DNA from: Clostridia bacterium
GTDB taxonomy: Bacteria; Bacillota; Clostridia; Christensenellales; SZUA-584
Assembly: GCA_018648645.1 (NCBI GenBank)
Contig: JABGQS010000024.1
Span: 1 to 33,418, forward strand
DNA length: 33,418 nucleotides
Direction: 5' to 3'
Shown piece after piece: positions 17,973 to 27,447 of this stretch (the first letter of the stretch is position 1; each line of letters opens with the position of its first letter). A program made the position numbers and the translations under genes. Under the pieces are notes generated by a model that saw nothing but the letters and a program-made list of their open reading frames with translations, was not told the origin of the DNA and did not search any database.

Positions 17973-19196
17973 TCAAACCGCATCCCGATGCACTTCACCC
18001 ACCCGACTGCATATATCCAGCGTATCTCGTGCAATCATCAGCTCTTCATCCGTCAGAACCACCATTACCGCCACTTTGCTGTCAGGTGTCGAGATAATCT
18101 TTTGAACCCCTCTGCTATTGTTTTGCTCTCGGTCAATATCGACCCCAAGAAACTCAAGTTCCTCCGTTATCAATCCCCTTACCCCAAAATCATTCTCGCC
18201 AATGCCCCCGGCAAACACAATCGCGTCAACCCCGTTCATCGCGGCAACATACGAACCAATGTATTTCTTTACTCGATAGCAAAACACTTCGATTGCAATC
18301 ATAGAGCGCTCATCGCCTAGCTCAACATGCTTCCAAAGATCTCGAAAATCACTCGACTTTCCGGACAACCCCAACACTCCGCACCCGGTATTAAGATAAT
18401 CTATCACTCCCTCAATATCCATGTCCTTCTTCTTCATCAAATACTGCACAATCGCAGGGTCAATATCACCGCATCGTGTGCCCATTACAAAGCCCTCCAG
18501 CGGAGTGAACCCCATCGACGTATCAATCGACACGCCGTTTTTGACAGCCGACACGCTCGACCCATTCCCCAAATGACACGTAATCAGCTTTAACTCACCA
18601 ATATCCCTGCCCAGCATTTTGGCCGCCTGCATTACCATATACTTATGAGAAGTACCATGAAACCCATACCGGCGAATTTTCAAATCTGTGTATGCATCAT
18701 ACGACAACCCATAAAGAAATGCTTTGCTTGGCAGCGTTTGATGAAACGCAGTGTCAAATACCGCAACCATCGGCGTGTCCGTCATAATTCTTTTACACGC
18801 TTCAATAACCACAACGCTCACAGGGTTATGCAGCGGTGCAAGCTCCCCGTTCTCCCTAATGGCCTGCAGCGTCAAATCATCAATCAACGACGCATCAGAG
18901 AACCTCTCTCCACCGTGAGCAATCCTAAACCCTATCGCACCGATTTGCTCAATGCTCTCGATAACGCCATATTCGCTGGACAGCAGAGTTTCAACAACAG
19001 CTTCAACCGCCTCATTATGGTCGGCGATGCTCGCGTTCTCAATCACCTTGTCCTCGCCGTTGGCGTGGTGTTTCAGCGTAGTTCCTTCAATCCCAATTCG
19101 CTCTACAATTCCCGATGCCAATACGATTTCAAGCTCCATATCAATCATTTGATACTTCAAAGATGAACTTCCTGCATTTACAACAAATATATTCAT
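17973..19196 (-). CDS. ackA: Acetate kinase
   Basis: A 407-residue enzyme that interconverts acetyl phosphate plus ADP and acetate plus ATP. Family signatures are intact: NAGSSSLKYQ at the N-terminus, FDTAFHQTLP, RRYGFHGTSHKYM, the catalytic loop CHLGNGSSVSAVKNG and GFTPLEGFVMGTRCGD. Length is typical. It lies 245 bases downstream of the dehydrogenase E3 gene on the same strand. I see no convincing terminator and no strong promoter in that gap, so co-transcription is possible but unproven. No pta gene is in the window. Together with the dehydrogenase it could make ATP from pyruvate-derived acetyl-CoA. Confidence 0.97.
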   Translation of the reverse strand: MNIFVVNAGSSSLKYQMIDMELEIVLASGIVERIGIEGTTLKHHANGEDKVIENASIADHNEAVEAVVETLLSSEYGVIESIEQIGAIGFRIAHGGERFSDASLIDDLTLQAIRENGELAPLHNPVSVVVIEACKRIMTDTPMVAVFDTAFHQTLPSKAFLYGLSYDAYTDLKIRRYGFHGTSHKYMVMQAAKMLGRDIGELKLITCHLGNGSSVSAVKNGVSIDTSMGFTPLEGFVMGTRCGDIDPAIVQYLMKKKDMDIEGVIDYLNTGCGVLGLSGKSSDFRDLWKHVELGDERSMIAIEVFCYRVKKYIGSYVAAMNGVDAIVFAGGIGENDFGVRGLITEELEFLGVDIDREQNNSRGVQKIISTPDSKVAVMVVLTDEELMIARDTLDICSRVGEVHRDAV

Positions 19197-19441: not shown

Positions 19442-21190
19442 TTATATATGCAACGCTCCCTTGCTGCTCCCAAGGAACGCCTCGCTCATCGCTTCACTTA
19501 GCGTCGGATGCGCGTGCACCGTAGTCCCTGCTGATTCTGCCGTAGCTTCCAGCCGCATCGCAATCGCAGCTTCGTGTATCAGCGTGCTCGCTTCAGGTCC
19601 AATGATGTGCACACCGAGTATCTCGCCAAATCGCGGATCGGTGACCACTTTGATAAACCCTTCGCTCTCGCCCATCGTCAACGCTTTGCCGTTAGCCGCA
19701 AACGGGAATTTAAACTCTCTGGCTTCAATGCCTTGGCTTTCTGCCTGCGCCTTAGTCAATCCAATGTATGCGATTTCTATATCCGTAAACACGCACGACG
19801 GTATATTTTGCTCTTCCGCCTCGGTCTTTCCGTCAAACAAACGCTCAACAGCCGCAACGCCCTGTTCACTCGCCGCGTGCGCCAGCTGACAAATCCCGTT
19901 CATATCGCCAATCGCATACACGCTCCTAAGATTCGTGCACATAAACTCATCCACATTCACAAACCCGCGCTTTGTCATATCAACGCCCAGCGCCTCAAAC
20001 GCATCGGTGTTTACTTTCCTGCCAACGGCTTCGAGCACCATATCGCACTTGACCGTGTTGTCGTCACTCATTATCACGGTATACCCCGCTTTTTCTTTCC
20101 TTATCGCGTCCACAGTCACACCCGTCGTCAGCTTAATGCCGTTTTTGCTCATATGCCTAGCCAAATACGTCGCAACTTCGTCATCCACCATCGGCAGTAT
20201 GCTCGGCAGCAACTCAACAATCGTCACGTCCACGCCAAAGCTGTTCATGATACAGCCAATTTCACAGCCGATAATTCCGCCGCCCACAATCACCATAGTC
20301 TTCGGCAGCTTTTTAAGCCCCATCAGCTTATCCGTGTTGTATATCTCCACGCCGTCCGCCACGTTTCTCAGCACAGACAACGGGCTGCTTCCCGTAGCCA
20401 GTATCGCATACTTGCAAGTAATCGTTTTGTCATTTACGCTAATTTCGTGCTCCTTGCTCATCTTAGCTTCGCCGTTGATGACTTCAACCTTCGCTTTTTT
20501 CAGCAAAGCTCCAACACCGCCGGTCAGTTGCTTCACAACCTTGTCCTTGCGCTTCATGATCTTAGCAAAATCAAACTTAGCGCCTTCTATCTCAAACCCA
20601 AACTCGCCCGCGTTCTGTATGCTCTGCCACTGCTTCGCGCTGGTATACAATGCTTTGGTCGGTATACACCCTCGGTTCAGGCACGCTCCGCCCAACACGT
20701 CCTTCTCAATCACAACAGTTTTCACACCAAGCTGCGCTGCTCTTAGAGCCGCCACATATCCGCCCGGTCCTCCGCCAATAATCGCCAAGTCATAGTCATA
20801 CGTCTTGCCATCGTCCTCAAGCGCTGCCGCTTTCTTCTTCGGCGTTGCAGTCGGTGCGCTCCGCTCTGACGAGCTCGGTGCTGCACTCGGTGCTGCTCCG
20901 TCTTTGCTTTCCGCCGAAACCACAACCTTCTCAATCTCAGGCACTTCCTCGCCCGCTTCACCGATGTACCCTACTTCAAGGTCACAAGGCACGTCCTCGC
21001 CTTCCTCGTAATACTGCTTCAGCAATATCCCCGCATACAACGAATCCACTTCCAGCGTGGTCTTGTCCGTCTCTACTTCATAAAGATAATCGCCTTTTTC
21101 AACCTTGTCGCCCTCATTTATCAGCCACTTGACGATTTTACCTTCCGTCATTGTCATGCCAAGCCTTGGCATTACCGTAAAATTACCCAT
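19442..21190 (-). CDS. lpdA: Dihydrolipoamide dehydrogenase (E3) with N-terminal lipoyl domain
   Basis: A 582-residue E3, about 110 longer than usual because it begins with a lipoyl domain (residues 1-80). The lipoyl-lysine is K43 in the VETDKTT motif. A flexible Ala/Ser/Pro/Lys linker (about 85-125) follows. The FAD motif IIGGGPGGY starts near residue 137 and the redox disulfide is CLNRGC. The NAD-binding GGGIIGCEIG, FAD-contacting YAIGDMNG and C-terminal HAHPTLSE dimer motif complete the enzyme. It reoxidises dihydrolipoamide with NAD+ and here also supplies the swinging arm. The start overlaps the end of the E2 gene by 8 bases, with GGAGG inside E2. Confidence 0.95.
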   Translation of the reverse strand: MGNFTVMPRLGMTMTEGKIVKWLINEGDKVEKGDYLYEVETDKTTLEVDSLYAGILLKQYYEEGEDVPCDLEVGYIGEAGEEVPEIEKVVVSAESKDGAAPSAAPSSSERSAPTATPKKKAAALEDDGKTYDYDLAIIGGGPGGYVAALRAAQLGVKTVVIEKDVLGGACLNRGCIPTKALYTSAKQWQSIQNAGEFGFEIEGAKFDFAKIMKRKDKVVKQLTGGVGALLKKAKVEVINGEAKMSKEHEISVNDKTITCKYAILATGSSPLSVLRNVADGVEIYNTDKLMGLKKLPKTMVIVGGGIIGCEIGCIMNSFGVDVTIVELLPSILPMVDDEVATYLARHMSKNGIKLTTGVTVDAIRKEKAGYTVIMSDDNTVKCDMVLEAVGRKVNTDAFEALGVDMTKRGFVNVDEFMCTNLRSVYAIGDMNGICQLAHAASEQGVAAVERLFDGKTEAEEQNIPSCVFTDIEIAYIGLTKAQAESQGIEAREFKFPFAANGKALTMGESEGFIKVVTDPRFGEILGVHIIGPEASTLIHEAAIAMRLEATAESAGTTVHAHPTLSEAMSEAFLGSSKGALHI

Positions 21191-22127
21191 TGCTATCCTC
21201 CATACATGTCGGGTGCTCTATAATTTCTTTCAACCGCTTCATAAACATACCGCTTACCGCTCCGTCGATATGCCGATGGTCGCTCGTCACGCTCATTCGC
21301 ATTATCGGCCTTATGCCGATGTTTCCGTCAACAGGCACAACCGTGTCGGCAATCGTCCCGACTCCAAGTATCGCCGCTTCGGGCAAGTTGATAATCGGCG
21401 TAAAGTCGTCCACCGGAAACGCTCCCATGTTGCTTATCGTGAACGTACCGCCGCTATACTCCTCCGGTGCAAGTCTTCCTTCGCGCGCTTTGCCGACAAG
21501 TCTCTTTCTCTCGGCGGTAATCTGCCCAATCGACAGCCTATCCGCGTTCTTGATATTCGGCACAATCAACCCGTCCTCCAGCGCAACCGCCAGCCCAACG
21601 TTAATCTGCTCGTGTATCTTAATATGCGTCTCCATGAACGAACTATTCATAATCATGTTGTCTCTTAGCGCCATCGCAGCCGCTTTAATCAACAAATCCG
21701 AATACGTCGGCTTTATTCCGCCGCTCGCAACGCTCTGCTGCGCCAACTGCGCTAAGAACACCTTCAGCTCACCCGCATCAATGCTGCCGTGGTTGGTATA
21801 CTGCGGCGCATTCGTCAAACTCTCGCTCATCCTGCGCGCAATCACACTGCGCATACCGCTCAGCGGAATCACATTGTCCTGCATGGCTTGTTTGTAAGCC
21901 AGCACGTCCTCTTTACCTATTGTATCTCTCGAGTCAATCTGGTTTATGTCCACGTTGTAGTACTGCGCCACCGCTTGTGCCAAAGGGGTTGCACTAAATC
22001 CTTTAAACGCCAACACATCGCTTAGCTGCACATATCCGGTCACTCCCGTGCCGTGTATCCTAGCCAAATCAACTCGCTTGTCACCCGCTGCTTTTCTGGC
22101 GGCGGGCGTTGCCATTATTATTGACAT
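21183..22127 (-). CDS. Dihydrolipoamide acyltransferase (E2) lacking a lipoyl domain
   Basis: A 314-residue E2 of a pyruvate or acetoin dehydrogenase complex. The N-terminus is a peripheral subunit-binding domain (residues 5-42: ATPAARKAA...GTGVTGYVQLSDV), and a second, more divergent one follows (46-80: ATPLAQAVA...KEDVLAY). The catalytic domain runs from about residue 85 to the end, with the active-site motif DHRHIDG (His284, Asp288). No lipoyl domain is present; the only one in the operon is on E3. I recall a similar arrangement in streptococcal E2 proteins. GGAGGG precedes the start, which lies 11 bases after E1beta. Acetyl transfer to CoA is expected. Confidence 0.92.
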   Translation of the reverse strand: MSIIMATPAARKAAGDKRVDLARIHGTGVTGYVQLSDVLAFKGFSATPLAQAVAQYYNVDINQIDSRDTIGKEDVLAYKQAMQDNVIPLSGMRSVIARRMSESLTNAPQYTNHGSIDAGELKVFLAQLAQQSVASGGIKPTYSDLLIKAAAMALRDNMIMNSSFMETHIKIHEQINVGLAVALEDGLIVPNIKNADRLSIGQITAERKRLVGKAREGRLAPEEYSGGTFTISNMGAFPVDDFTPIINLPEAAILGVGTIADTVVPVDGNIGIRPIMRMSVTSDHRHIDGAVSGMFMKRLKEIIEHPTCMEDSNG

Positions 22128-22138
22128 TGCTCGCCCTC

Positions 22139-23116
22139 CTATTTCAGCAGCTCTTTTGCTTTTTCATATATCGTCTCTACCTGCGGCACAACCTGCGCTT
22201 CAAGCTCCGGCGAATACGGTATCGGTATAAAGTCTCCGCCAAACCGTTTGATCGGTCTGTCAAGATAGAAGAACGCTTCGCTGTCGCCAATCACTCCGGC
22301 AACCTCTGCGCCCACGCCATAGTTCTGCACACCTTCGTGCGTTATCAGCACTCGGCCCGTCTTCTTTGCCGACTCGATAATCGTCTGCGTATCCAGCGGT
22401 GACAGCGTGCGCAAATCAACAACCTCTGCGTCAATGCCGTCTTTCTCCAGCATCTCTGCCGCTTTCAACGCCTTTTGCAGCGTATAGCTATAGCTTATTA
22501 TCGTGATATCTTTTCCCGCTCGCTTCACGTCCGCTTTGCCGATGGGGATCACATAATCATCGTCCGGCACTTCGCCCTTCACACTATACCCAATCTTGTG
22601 CTCAAAAAACAGCACCGGGTTATCGTCGCGTATCGCCGCTTTTAATAATCCCTTTGCGTCATATGGCGTGCTCGGCATAATCACCTTTAATCCCGGCACA
22701 TGGCAGAACCACGCTTCCAGCGACTGCGAATGCTGCGCCGCAGCTCCGCTTCCGCTGCCCGTCGGTGTGCGTACCACCATAGGTATCTTCACTTGTCCGC
22801 CCAGCATAAATCGCTGTTTTGCTGCTTGGTTGACCAACGCATCCATCGCGATAGTCACAAAGTCGCTAAACATATACTCGACTATCGGTCGATACCCGGC
22901 CATCGCCGCGCCCACCGCCATCGACGTGAACCCGCTCTCCACAATCGGCGTGTCCATCAATCGCTCTTCGCCAAACTCTTCGAGGAAACCATTGGTTATG
23001 CCAAAACATCCGCCATATATTCCCATGTCCTCGCCCATCATAAATATCTTTTCATCCCGCCGCATCTCTTCACGCAGCGCGTCCGTAATTGCTTGCTTAA
23101 ATGTTATAACCGCCAT
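22139..23116 (-). CDS. Pyruvate/acetoin dehydrogenase E1 beta subunit
   Basis: A 325-residue transketolase-like subunit that pairs with E1alpha to decarboxylate a 2-oxo acid or acetoin using thiamine diphosphate. The TPP-activating Glu is E60 (IVESGF). The motif AAQHSQSLEAWFCHVPGLKV (about 126-145) is highly typical of this family. The C-terminal domain includes ITHEGVQNYGVGAEV. GGGGAGG precedes the start, which lies 12 bases after E1alpha. The choice between pyruvate and acetoin cannot be settled from sequence alone. Confidence 0.95.
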   Translation of the reverse strand: MAVITFKQAITDALREEMRRDEKIFMMGEDMGIYGGCFGITNGFLEEFGEERLMDTPIVESGFTSMAVGAAMAGYRPIVEYMFSDFVTIAMDALVNQAAKQRFMLGGQVKIPMVVRTPTGSGSGAAAQHSQSLEAWFCHVPGLKVIMPSTPYDAKGLLKAAIRDDNPVLFFEHKIGYSVKGEVPDDDYVIPIGKADVKRAGKDITIISYSYTLQKALKAAEMLEKDGIDAEVVDLRTLSPLDTQTIIESAKKTGRVLITHEGVQNYGVGAEVAGVIGDSEAFFYLDRPIKRFGGDFIPIPYSPELEAQVVPQVETIYEKAKELLK

Positions 23117-23128
23117 ATTGTCCTCCCC

Positions 23129-24085
23129 CTATGCGTAAACGAGCGATTTCGCTTCGTCCAATGAAACAATCGGTGCTGCCATCGCATACTCAACCGCTTC
23201 TTCCATATAGTCCTCAGCCTGCTTATAAATCGCCTTTAGTTCATCGTCTTTAAATCCGTCTTTAAGCATGTACTGCTCAAAGCGCATAATCGGACACTTG
23301 GCCTTCCACTCCGCTTCTTCCTCGCGCGTTCTGTAAGCACGCTTGTCGCTTTTGGAGTGCCCAAGCCATCTGTACGTCTTCGCTTCAATCAGCGTTGGTC
23401 CGTCTCCGCGCCGTGCACGCTCTGCCGCTTCCCCTACTGCTTCCATCATGGCAAACACATCGTTTCCGTCCACAACAACGCCCGGCATTCCATACGCCAC
23501 AGCCCTGTCTGCAATGTTCGGAACAGACACCGTCTTCTCCACAGAAGTTGACATACCATACTGATTGTTCTCGCATATATACACTATCGGCAGCTTCCAA
23601 AGCTGCGCCATGTTCAGCGCCTCATGGAAAACACCCGTGTTGGATGTCCCGTCACCAAAGAAGTCGATTATAATCTTATTTTCCTTATCCTTTTTCAGCG
23701 CCAGCGCAACCCCTGTTGCAATCGGAATTGCCGGACCGATAATCCCGTTCGCGCCATAGTTATTAGACTCAATATCCACGATGTGCATCGATCCACCCAT
23801 GCCTTTGCAAAACCCGGGTTCGCGCCCCAATAGTTCGCACATCATCTTTTTAACATCCGCCTCTTTGGCAATACAGTGGCTGTGTCCTCTATGGCTGCTC
23901 ATCATCAGGTCGTCCTTGTTGGTCGCATATATCGCGCCCACAGCAACGCCCTCCTGTCCAACGCTCAAATGCGTGGTTCCATGAATCATCCCGCGCATAA
24001 ACATCTCGTTCACCCGCTCCTCAAAAATCCGCGCAGAGTATAGCTTATAGAGCATATCCCTTGCTGTTTCCTTACTCAGTTTCAT
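23129..24085 (-). CDS. Pyruvate/acetoin dehydrogenase E1 alpha subunit
   Basis: A 318-residue TPP-binding subunit, first gene of the dehydrogenase operon. The TPP/magnesium motif runs from GDG at 144-146 to NN at 173-174. Other family markers are HGTTHLSVGQEGVAVG (residues 35-50), SHRGHSHCIAKE and the phosphorylation-loop equivalent WLGHSKSDKRAYRT. The length and the RGHSH motif fit both acetoin dehydrogenase (AcoA) and the short two-chain pyruvate dehydrogenases. The nearby ackA favours an acetyl-CoA-to-acetate route, which both would supply. AAAGGAAAG precedes the start. Confidence 0.95.
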   Translation of the reverse strand: MKLSKETARDMLYKLYSARIFEERVNEMFMRGMIHGTTHLSVGQEGVAVGAIYATNKDDLMMSSHRGHSHCIAKEADVKKMMCELLGREPGFCKGMGGSMHIVDIESNNYGANGIIGPAIPIATGVALALKKDKENKIIIDFFGDGTSNTGVFHEALNMAQLWKLPIVYICENNQYGMSTSVEKTVSVPNIADRAVAYGMPGVVVDGNDVFAMMEAVGEAAERARRGDGPTLIEAKTYRWLGHSKSDKRAYRTREEEAEWKAKCPIMRFEQYMLKDGFKDDELKAIYKQAEDYMEEAVEYAMAAPIVSLDEAKSLVYA

Positions 24086-24402: not shown

Positions 24403-24435
24403 TTTACATTTTCTACAGATTTGTGTTAATATAAT
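24403..24435 (+). promoter_or_regulatory. Promoter of the SorC-type regulator
   Basis: TTTACA (24403-24408) is followed after 18 bases by TAATAT (24427-24432), which overlaps a perfect TATAAT (24430-24435). Because this -10 covers the upstream ATG at 24434, that ATG cannot be the usual start, which supports 24464. Confidence 0.65.
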
Positions 24436-24463
24436 GTCGAATACAGCACATAAAGGGTGTAAT

Positions 24464-25417
24464 ATGAATAATTTTGCCGAGGAAAGACGTCAATTGCTCG
24501 AGTCAATAGCACAAATGTATTATATAGAAGGTATGTCGCAGGCAGACATAGCCGCAAAGGTCTCTATGTCGCGCGCCAATATCTCAAAGCTGCTAAAAAC
24601 CTGCGTTGATGAGCACATCGTCGAATTCAAAATCAACTCGACAAGCTCCCCACGAACATCGCTGGAACTAATGTTACAAGAGAAATACAACCTCAAGAAA
24701 GCAATCGTAGCCCCCTCCGATTCGCACGGCGAGCTGAGCAAAAACAACGTCGGTCTCTACGCCGCAGAATATCTCATATCCACAATAAAAAGCGGCATGC
24801 TCATTGGCGTGGCATGGGGCACAACGCTCTATTACGTAATCAACAACCTAAAACCAAAAAACACCATCCAAGCAGACGTCATTCAAATGGTCGGCGGCAT
24901 CAGCCCAAAAAGCGCCGATACCGACGGACAAAACCTCGCGCAAAAAATGGCGGAAACGCTAAACGGCAAATGTAACATCATGCAGCTGCCAATGCTCGTG
25001 CAAAGCAAACTGCTTCGCGATCTGCTGCTCGAAGAACCTTTTGTCAGCAAACACTTCAAACTGTTTAACGACATCGACATAGCCGTTGTCGGTCTCGGTT
25101 CCAACCGCGCAGAGTCAAGCGCAGTATACAAATCCGGCTACATTACTCGCGAGGAGACCGAGAGCATACTAGAGCTCGGTGCCATCGGCAATATCTGCGG
25201 ACACAACATCGACATAAACGGCAACCCCTGCGCAACAAACCTAAGCGACAAAGTCATCAGCATCGAGCTAAATCAGCTCAAAAAAATAGACACCGTAATC
25301 GGCGTCGCTTCCGGCTTCGAGAAAACGCAGGCAGCACTCGCAAGTCTGCGCGGCTCATATATCGACGTGCTCATCGTAGACGAAAACCTCGCTCACAGCA
25401 TACTCAATGCAGAATAA
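24464..25417 (+). CDS. SorC/CggR-family sugar-responsive transcriptional regulator
   Basis: A 317-residue regulator. The N-terminal helix-turn-helix (EGMSQADIAAKVSMSRANISKLL, split over residues about 20-42) is followed by the SorC sugar-binding domain. That domain has a GVAWGTTLYYVINNL loop and a C-terminal GVASGFEKTQAALASLRGSYIDVLIVDE segment. These proteins sense phosphorylated sugars or related metabolites and act as repressors or activators of neighbouring operons. It is divergent from the dehydrogenase operon with about 380 bases between the genes, so that operon is the most likely target. The start at 24464 has AAAGGG upstream; an ATG at 24434 lies inside the -10 box. Confidence 0.9.
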   Translation: MNNFAEERRQLLESIAQMYYIEGMSQADIAAKVSMSRANISKLLKTCVDEHIVEFKINSTSSPRTSLELMLQEKYNLKKAIVAPSDSHGELSKNNVGLYAAEYLISTIKSGMLIGVAWGTTLYYVINNLKPKNTIQADVIQMVGGISPKSADTDGQNLAQKMAETLNGKCNIMQLPMLVQSKLLRDLLLEEPFVSKHFKLFNDIDIAVVGLGSNRAESSAVYKSGYITREETESILELGAIGNICGHNIDINGNPCATNLSDKVISIELNQLKKIDTVIGVASGFEKTQAALASLRGSYIDVLIVDENLAHSILNAE

Positions 25418-25962: not shown

Positions 25963-25995
25963 AGCCCAAATGGTTCTTTTCGTTTGGGCTTTTTA
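25963..25995. terminator. Bidirectional terminator between the Cys-rich gene and selO
   Basis: A perfect 8-bp stem, AGCCCAAA (25963-25970) and TTTGGGCT (25983-25990), is followed by TTTTT on the plus strand. The T-run overlaps the stop codon of selO, which arrives from the opposite direction. On the minus strand the hairpin has only a weak T-run, so it works best for the plus-strand gene. Confidence 0.8.
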
Positions 25996-27447
25996 CGTCC
26001 CGCAATACGTCTTATAAGGCACACCCGTCGCTTTCGGTGGCTCGGCATATTCGCTCACTTTCCCGGTGTGCACATAAGGCTTGCTCAGCGCTTCAAGCAA
26101 CCGCTCCATCACACCATAATCCCCGTTTTCGGTGGCCGCGCTCAGCGCTTCCTCCACCCGATGGTTGCGCGGAATAATCGCAGGATTGCTGCTTTGCATC
26201 AGCTGCTTCGCTTCGCGCTCACTCTCCTGCTGCGCTCCAAGCCTCGCCTTCCATTTTTTTCGCCACTGCGCAAGCTTTTCGCTGTCAAACATTCCCGCGC
26301 CTTCGTCCGCGCCTGTTGTCAGCGCCGCAAACGTATTTGTAAAGTCCGCTTTGTACTCCTGCATCAGCGCCAGCAGCCCCGCAAACAGCGCTTGATCTCC
26401 CTCGTCCTCGCTGAACAACCCAAGCTTGCCGCGCATCCCGCTCATCCAACTCTCGCGATACTGCGCCACATACTTTTCTACCTCCACCTGCGCTTTCTCC
26501 CGCGCCGGCTCAGCGCTCTCGTGCAATATCGGCAGCAGCGTCTCGGCAAACCGCGTCAAGTTCCACCCGCCGATCGTCGGCTGATTCCCATACGCATACC
26601 TGCCCTGCACATCAATCGAGCTAAACACCGTGTCCCGGCTATAAGCGTCCATAAACGCGCACGGTCCGTAATCGATCGTCTCGCCGGATATCGTCATATT
26701 GTCGGTGTTCATCACTCCGTGTATAAATCCAACCATCTGCCACTTCGCTATAAGCGCAGCTTGGCGTTTCACTACCTCGCGCAACAACCCTAAATATTTT
26801 TCTTCGTCCTGCTCCAAATGCGGATAGTGCCGCTCTATCGCATAGTCAGCCAGCGCGCGCAAATCGTCCTCGTCCCCAAACTTCGCAGCAAACTCAAACG
26901 TACCAACCCGCAAATGACTGCTCGCCACCCGCGTCAGCACCGCCCCAATTTCCGGCGTTTGCCGATACACAGGCTCCCCGGTCACCACCACCGCCAAACT
27001 TCGCGTGGTTTCTATCCCCAGCGCACTCATCGCTTCGCTGATGATATACTCCCTCAGCATCGGGCCAAGGCTCGCTCGTCCGTCGCCGCCTCTCGAATAC
27101 GGCGTTCGCCCGCTGCCTTTCAGCTGCACATCATACCGCTCGCCGCCGGGCGCAATCTGCTCTCCCAGCAATATCGCCCTTCCGTCCCCCAGCATCGTAA
27201 ACTGCCCAAACTGATGCCCCGCATACGCTTGCGCAATAGGCACTCCGCCCTTCGGCACGCTGTTGCCACTCAGCTCCTGCACGCCCTTCTTGCTTCTCAA
27301 AGCCTGCGGACTAAGCCCCAGCTCCCTCGCCAGCGCGTCGTTGCTCACCACCATCCTCGGCGCACTAACAGGCACCGGCTCAACCCGGCTGAAAAACACC
27401 TCCGGCAGCTCCATATAACTATTCTCCAACTTCCATCCAATATCCAT
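25993..27447 (-). CDS. selO: SelO/YdiU-family protein adenylyltransferase
   Basis: A 484-residue pseudokinase-fold enzyme that, in characterised relatives, transfers AMP from ATP to Ser/Thr/Tyr of target proteins in redox defence. Family signatures are [10 protein letters not shown] and [11 protein letters not shown] (about residues 75-95), [18 protein letters not shown] (nucleotide loop), and the metal/catalytic stretch HGVMNTDNM...DYGPCAFMD near residue 245. The last three residues are CGT. The family keeps Sec or Cys at the third position from the end, and here it is Cys482, so this is the Cys form. The gene is a single unit, divergent from the FAH-pcrA operon. AGAGGG precedes the start. 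Confidence 0.95.

Follow-up and report, generated by a model that had tools for sequence, protein, structure and literature searches.

Which subunit carries the lipoyl arm in a 2-oxoacid dehydrogenase complex whose E2 has no lipoyl domain and whose E3 begins with one? The question is raised by an operon in the window (the whole stretch of 33,418 nucleotides analysed here), which is contig C17 of a genome of 77 contigs and 2.67 Mb in total. The features of this locus are as follows.

17973..19196, minus strand: acetate kinase (Pfam Acetate_kinase 485.3 bits; above the TIGR00016 cut-off)
19442..21190, minus strand: E3 dihydrolipoyl dehydrogenase with N-terminal lipoyl domain, 582 aa (above the TIGR01350 cut-off, residues 133-581)
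20957..21190, minus strand: lipoyl domain of E3, about residues 1-78, with K43 at 21062-21064 (Pfam Biotin_lipoyl 7-69; sequence)
21183..22127, minus strand: E2 without lipoyl domain, 314 aa (Pfam, sequence)
21204..21878, minus strand: catalytic domain of E2, DHRHIDG at residues 283-289 (Pfam 2-oxoacid_dh; sequence)
21894..21992, minus strand: second, weaker, putative subunit-binding domain of E2, residues 46-78, with a shortened loop (sub-cut-off Pfam match, own profile, conservation, model)
22011..22115, minus strand: first peripheral subunit-binding domain of E2, residues 5-39 (Pfam E3_binding; alone 34.5 bits, above cut-off)
22139..23116, minus strand: E1-beta, 325 aa (Pfam Transket_pyr and Transketolase_C; NF006667 418.3 bits, above cut-off 321)
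23129..24085, minus strand: E1-alpha, 318 aa (Pfam E1_dh 302.3 bits; TIGR03182 350.2 bits, below cut-off 393.85)
24434..25417, plus strand: divergent regulator with a sugar-binding domain, SorC/DeoR type (Pfam Sugar-bind 231.7 bits)

The operon runs on the minus strand in the order E1-alpha, E1-beta, E2, E3 and then acetate kinase, with a gap of 11 bases between E1-beta and E2, an 8-base overlap between E2 and E3, and 245 bases between E3 and acetate kinase. Elsewhere in the window, a frame of 484 aa (25993-27447, minus strand) presumably encodes a protein resembling the SelO/YdiU family.

The first-pass annotation had read E3 as opening with a complete lipoyl domain and E2 as beginning with a subunit-binding domain and having no lipoyl domain, and both readings are borne out. 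E3 matches TIGR01350 lipoamide_DH at 521.2 bits (cut-off 408.8) and carries Biotin_lipoyl at residues 7-69, N-terminal to the dehydrogenase domains, at 51.2 bits (Pfam cut-off 22.1), with K43 as the motif lysine within ETDKT, so that a lipoamide dehydrogenase equivalog, an N-terminal lipoyl domain and the motif lysine are united in a single lipoyl-bearing protein. K43 is the predicted site of lipoylation, and the genome encodes one lipoate ligase homologue (203.7 bits). In E2, Pfam E3_binding matches two stretches (43.1 bits, best at residues 5-39), of which the first scores above the cut-off and the second below it, and the first also matches solved binding domains in the PDB by sequence search (best E 0.00057). 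The catalytic domain follows at residues 84-308 (2-oxoacid_dh, 256.5 bits) and has the HxxxDG motif of a 2-oxoacid dehydrogenase E2, while Biotin_lipoyl is unlisted for E2 in the Pfam search even at E ≤ 10. A Pfam search of E1-alpha and E1-beta finds no Biotin_lipoyl in either protein, and the sole lipoyl domain of the operon is the one on E3.

A second subunit-binding domain had also been placed at residues 46-80 of E2. Pfam does report two stretches, but tested alone the second one reaches 15.1 bits (E 0.11) where the cut-off is 23.7 bits, and its sequence has no PDB match at E ≤ 10. A profile iterated on relatives scores it at 27 bits, and its mean pairwise identity among nine lipoyl-less relatives is 49.0%, compared with 55.7% in the first domain, 56.0% across the catalytic domain and 27.5% in the linker. 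An AlphaFold2 model of E2 built on a 38-row alignment (mean pLDDT 94.0, pTM 0.78) predicts two helices in this domain, at residues 48-56 and 72-82, with a block pLDDT of 84-95 over residues 41-90. Because the profile of relatives, the conservation and the modelled helices agree despite the low Pfam score, we consider the second subunit-binding domain to be real and under constraint, with a putative role in binding. It is without the usual glycine-rich loop, and the shortened loop is also present in second domains of lipoyl-bearing E2s. A glutamine follows TPLA in this domain, in contrast to the arginine that follows TPAA in the first domain and that is probably a binding residue, as in the Geobacillus structures. 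We found no paper on tandem binding domains in the literature searched.

Matic et al. 2003 reportedly described 'a novel lipoyl domain arrangement' in the pyruvate dehydrogenase (PDH) of Mycoplasma hyopneumoniae, and Hakansson and Smith 2007, cited in PMC10444860, are said to have characterised a pneumococcal E3 'harboring its own substrate'. The expectation of the first-pass annotation that the layout is probably not new is correct: in M. hyopneumoniae PDH the lipoyl domain is on PdhD, with lipoate found at K42 by LC-MS/MS, and Alcaligenes and Neisseria are given as further cases of E3-borne lipoyl domains (PMC7873978, in excerpt). The layout has thus already been described in other bacteria, and the window is a further case. 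The window complex shares the lipoyl domain on E3 with M. hyopneumoniae PDH, but the 17 Mycoplasma-order loci with this layout have one binding domain where the window E2 has two, and their E2s and E3s form a clade separate from that of the window in both the E2 and the E3 tree. The Streptococcus-type E2 (PRK14843) is closer in layout, with no lipoyl domain, two binding domains and an adjacent lipoyl-bearing E3 (30 of 30 fetched loci, 28 of them distinct, from genomes that we infer to be streptococci), although the second binding domain of the window E2 differs in its shortened loop. All fetched loci above the PRK14843 and PRK11857 cut-offs (30 and 17, with E2 frames of 304-392 aa) encode lipoyl-less E2s. 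The window E2 scores 219.5 bits against PRK14843 (NCBIfam, 347 positions, cut-off 429) and 180.2 bits against PRK11857 (NCBIfam, 308 positions, cut-off 378), and since it falls below both cut-offs it belongs to the same kind of system but lies outside either curated family. Some Clostridia E2s resemble it in their two binding domains and often also in the shortened loop of the second, but differ in carrying the lipoyl domain on E2, the adjacent E3 being without one in 37 of the 40 cases with an adjacent E3.

To describe how the lipoyl state of E2 relates to that of E3, we surveyed the E2 frames of 231 loci, which gave 209 non-redundant frames and, with 7 that start at a locus edge set aside, 202 with a readable start. 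Of these, 65 are lipoyl-less and 137 lipoyl-bearing; the counts are not prevalences, because loci entered the set through their similarity either to the window E2 or to one of two lipoyl-less families, and many of the rows are closely related. An E3 is adjacent to 59 of the 65 lipoyl-less E2s and is lipoyl-bearing in 56 cases; this recurrence is inflated by the relatedness of the rows, with 28 of the 56 pairs coming from one single-order search and 17 from another. The opposite pattern is seen for the lipoyl-bearing E2s, where 84 of 137 have an adjacent E3 (81 without a lipoyl domain, 3 with one) and 53 have none adjacent. The motif lysine is kept in all 63 lipoyl domains of adjacent E3s (29 by pattern, 34 by eye). 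Among the three exceptions in the 59, the E2 frame of L044 starts at contig base 10 and is possibly cut, in L048 a different frame encodes a lipoyl and a binding domain, with unread bases in between, and L152 has a free-standing lipoyl frame. Six lipoyl-less E2s have no adjacent E3: L133, on a short contig, in whose locus no lipoyl frame was found, and L138, L235, L238, L240 and L243, all of which are accompanied by a free-standing lipoyl frame, so that such a protein adjoins six lipoyl-less E2s (these five and L152). A Fisher test of E2 against E3 lipoyl state (3, 81, 56, 1) gives P of about 2e-34, a value that we set aside as evidence of significance, as the rows are related and two lipoyl-less E2s without binding domains but with an adjacent E3 (L048 and L152) are omitted from it. 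Only 2 independent contrasts fall on starred branches, which is not enough for a test or for any statement of significance.

The number of binding domains follows a different pattern. Two are present in 49 of the 137 lipoyl-bearing E2s (and three in one), and the 56 pairs with the lipoyl domain on E3 have two in 39 cases (28 of them found in the Lactobacillales search and 11 elsewhere) and one in 17, all of them from the Mycoplasma search. On these counts, two binding domains are neither required for the lipoyl move nor a product of it, and tandem binding domains are a separate trait. The first-pass annotation proposed that two such domains could recruit two E3 or E1 units.

The arm on E3 is favoured because the operon's only lipoyl domain is found there and because the pairing recurs in these 56 of 59 cases. 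We therefore regard the window operon as very probably encoding a 2-oxoacid dehydrogenase complex whose only lipoyl domain has moved to the N-terminus of E3 and whose substrate is most likely pyruvate, with acetoin as a possible alternative; an arm carried on E3, and not on E2 as is customary, is the best reading. The first-pass annotation went further, holding that the arm must come from E3 and that a lipoyl-bearing E2 elsewhere in the genome would count against this. 'Must' is too strong, and this objection holds in part, because two lipoyl-bearing E2s are encoded in other operons, one of them degenerate and without an E3 of its own, but each has its own E1 genes and its own operon. They are among six places in the genome that match Biotin_lipoyl, one being the window E3. 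Judged by sequence and neighbouring genes, two others appear to be biotin carriers (C23:81235, which precedes a biotin carboxylase frame, and C10:36884, which follows a carboxyltransferase-like frame), and one appears to be the glycine cleavage H protein. The E2 on contig C21 has a lipoyl, a binding and a catalytic domain, and its operon also holds an apparently fused E1 and an E3 that has no lipoyl domain; the 823 aa frame adjoining this conventional E2 and its E3 (L016 2326-4797) reads as the fusion of E1-alpha and E1-beta.

The E2-like protein on contig C23 (L017 6417-7505) is the main candidate for an arm supplied in trans, which would make the lipoyl domain of E3 an extra. This protein has a lipoyl domain (Biotin_lipoyl, 59.8 bits) and a binding domain (E3_binding, 32.4 bits), its 2-oxoacid_dh match starts at profile position 26, and its acyltransferase site is degenerate, with DADVIDR where DHRxxDG is expected, unlike a relative in a Christensenella hongkongensis genome (L249) that retains DHRIVDG; furthermore, no E3 frame was found within its locus. 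However, it adjoins its own E1-alpha and E1-beta, and the pairing of a lipoyl-bearing E3 with a lipoyl-less E2 recurs across other genomes, so we think it improbable that an E2 of another operon provides the arm. Still less credible is an E2 that is truncated or misassembled, having lost its lipoyl domain by error next to an E3 whose copy is an incidental extra, as the E3 lipoyl domains reported for Neisseria and Alcaligenes in the excerpted source (PMC7873978) might suggest. The 11-base gap to E1-beta and the 8-base overlap with E3 leave no space for a lost lipoyl domain, and that gap, together with the lack of a lipoyl match in either E1, argues against loss by frameshift. Outside the Lactobacillales set, the layout is shared by ten more distinct lipoyl-less E2s with tandem binding domains, eight of which are 50-55% identical to that of the window, and truncation or frameshift is refuted for practical purposes.

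A different substrate would leave the architecture unchanged. That the complex acts on acetoin or another 2-oxoacid in place of pyruvate is possible, if the less likely choice: E1-alpha falls below the cut-offs of both TIGR03182 (pyruvate dehydrogenase E1-alpha; scores given above) and TIGR03181 (249.6 bits, cut-off 411.35), but E1-beta passes the PDH E1-beta subfamily model NF006667, and the acetate kinase downstream of E3 suggests acetyl-CoA as the product, although pyruvate and acetoin would both yield it.

Turning to the relatives of the lipoyl-less E2 of the window, a single-protein search of genome contigs with this E2 found none, and an alignment-based search of genome contigs then gave 80 loci. 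The closest E2s (L080-L085, 50-54% identical) belong to a Christensenellaceae bacterium (L080), C. hongkongensis (L081), Christensenella sp. Marseille-P2438 (L084), two Clostridiales Family XIII MAGs (L082, L085) and an unclassified Clostridia bacterium (L083), and the E2 of C. hongkongensis is identical to that of G094, a member of the window's order. Nine of the 396 genomes searched in this order have a match at E ≤ 1e-55, and six of the nine, the window's included, have a lipoyl-less E2. In the nearest genomes of the same family (G002 and G004), it is E2 that bears the lipoyl domain, together with two binding domains, and the E3 has no lipoyl domain. In a catalytic-domain tree of 102 rows the window E2 groups with four other lipoyl-less E2s (98, starred). 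A single clade of lipoyl-less E2s that are paired with a lipoyl-bearing E3 is rejected when the Mycoplasma rows are included (p-AU 0.000387, 11 of 102 rows), but not when they are left out (p-AU 0.893, 8 rows), in which case the joint-clade tree scored better. For the lipoyl-bearing E3 cores, a single clade is rejected both with the Mycoplasma rows (p-AU 4.4e-05, 13 of 66 rows) and without them (p-AU 0.00218, 10 of 66). The starred branches of the E3 tree require at least 3 changes of lipoyl state, with gains and losses not told apart by the tree alone.

Lipoyl domains on both E2 and E3 are found in L042, L164 and L165 (Christensenella and kin). In L042 (940-2325 and the following E3), a second complex in a Christensenella genome, the two lipoyl domains are sisters (97, starred) in a lipoyl-domain tree that is mostly unresolved, the domain being short with few columns; this is the pattern that copying within an operon would give. 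In a tentative scenario, which may well prove wrong, the lipoyl arm is a portable part that was repeatedly copied from E2 to E3 within the operon and then lost from E2, and that can also become a separate small protein; the ancestral tandem binding domains of the window lineage would then have allowed a single E2 chain to bind E1 together with an E3 that bears the arm.

Separate small lipoyl proteins were observed in five Mycoplasma-order genomes, where E2 is a catalytic domain alone (L259 to L262 read with code 4).

L259 4082-5024: catalytic-domain-only E2 and free-standing lipoyl frame
L260 4129-5081: catalytic-domain-only E2 and free-standing lipoyl frame
L261 3749-4809, minus strand: catalytic-domain-only E2 and free-standing lipoyl frame
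L262 4094-5069, minus strand: catalytic-domain-only E2 and free-standing lipoyl frame
L263 4197-5517: catalytic-domain-only E2 and free-standing lipoyl frame, M. amphoriforme

The free-standing lipoyl frames adjoining these E2s are 82-92 aa long (161 aa in M. amphoriforme), with E1 frames nearby in L261, L262 and L263 and none found in loci L259 and L260. In Enterovibrio sp. (L138 5754-6696), E1-alpha, E1-beta, a free-standing lipoyl frame of 80 aa and a catalytic-domain-only E2 are consecutive. None of the literature searched describes free-standing lipoyl proteins beside E2 in its title or abstract, and this arrangement may be more unusual than the E3-borne arm.

Returning to the window complex with its arm on E3, E3 would attach to the core of E2 by way of the subunit-binding domain or domains, and the lipoyl arm on K43 would take the acyl group from E1, hand it to the E2 active site and be re-oxidised by an E3 core. 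This locus shows that the arrangement of mycoplasmas and streptococci also occurs in Christensenella and its relatives, and intermediate states are seen within one family. Should the arm indeed be carried by E3, every arm would be tied to an oxidase of its own, and how many arms a complex has would be set by the docking of E3 and not by the copy number of E2.
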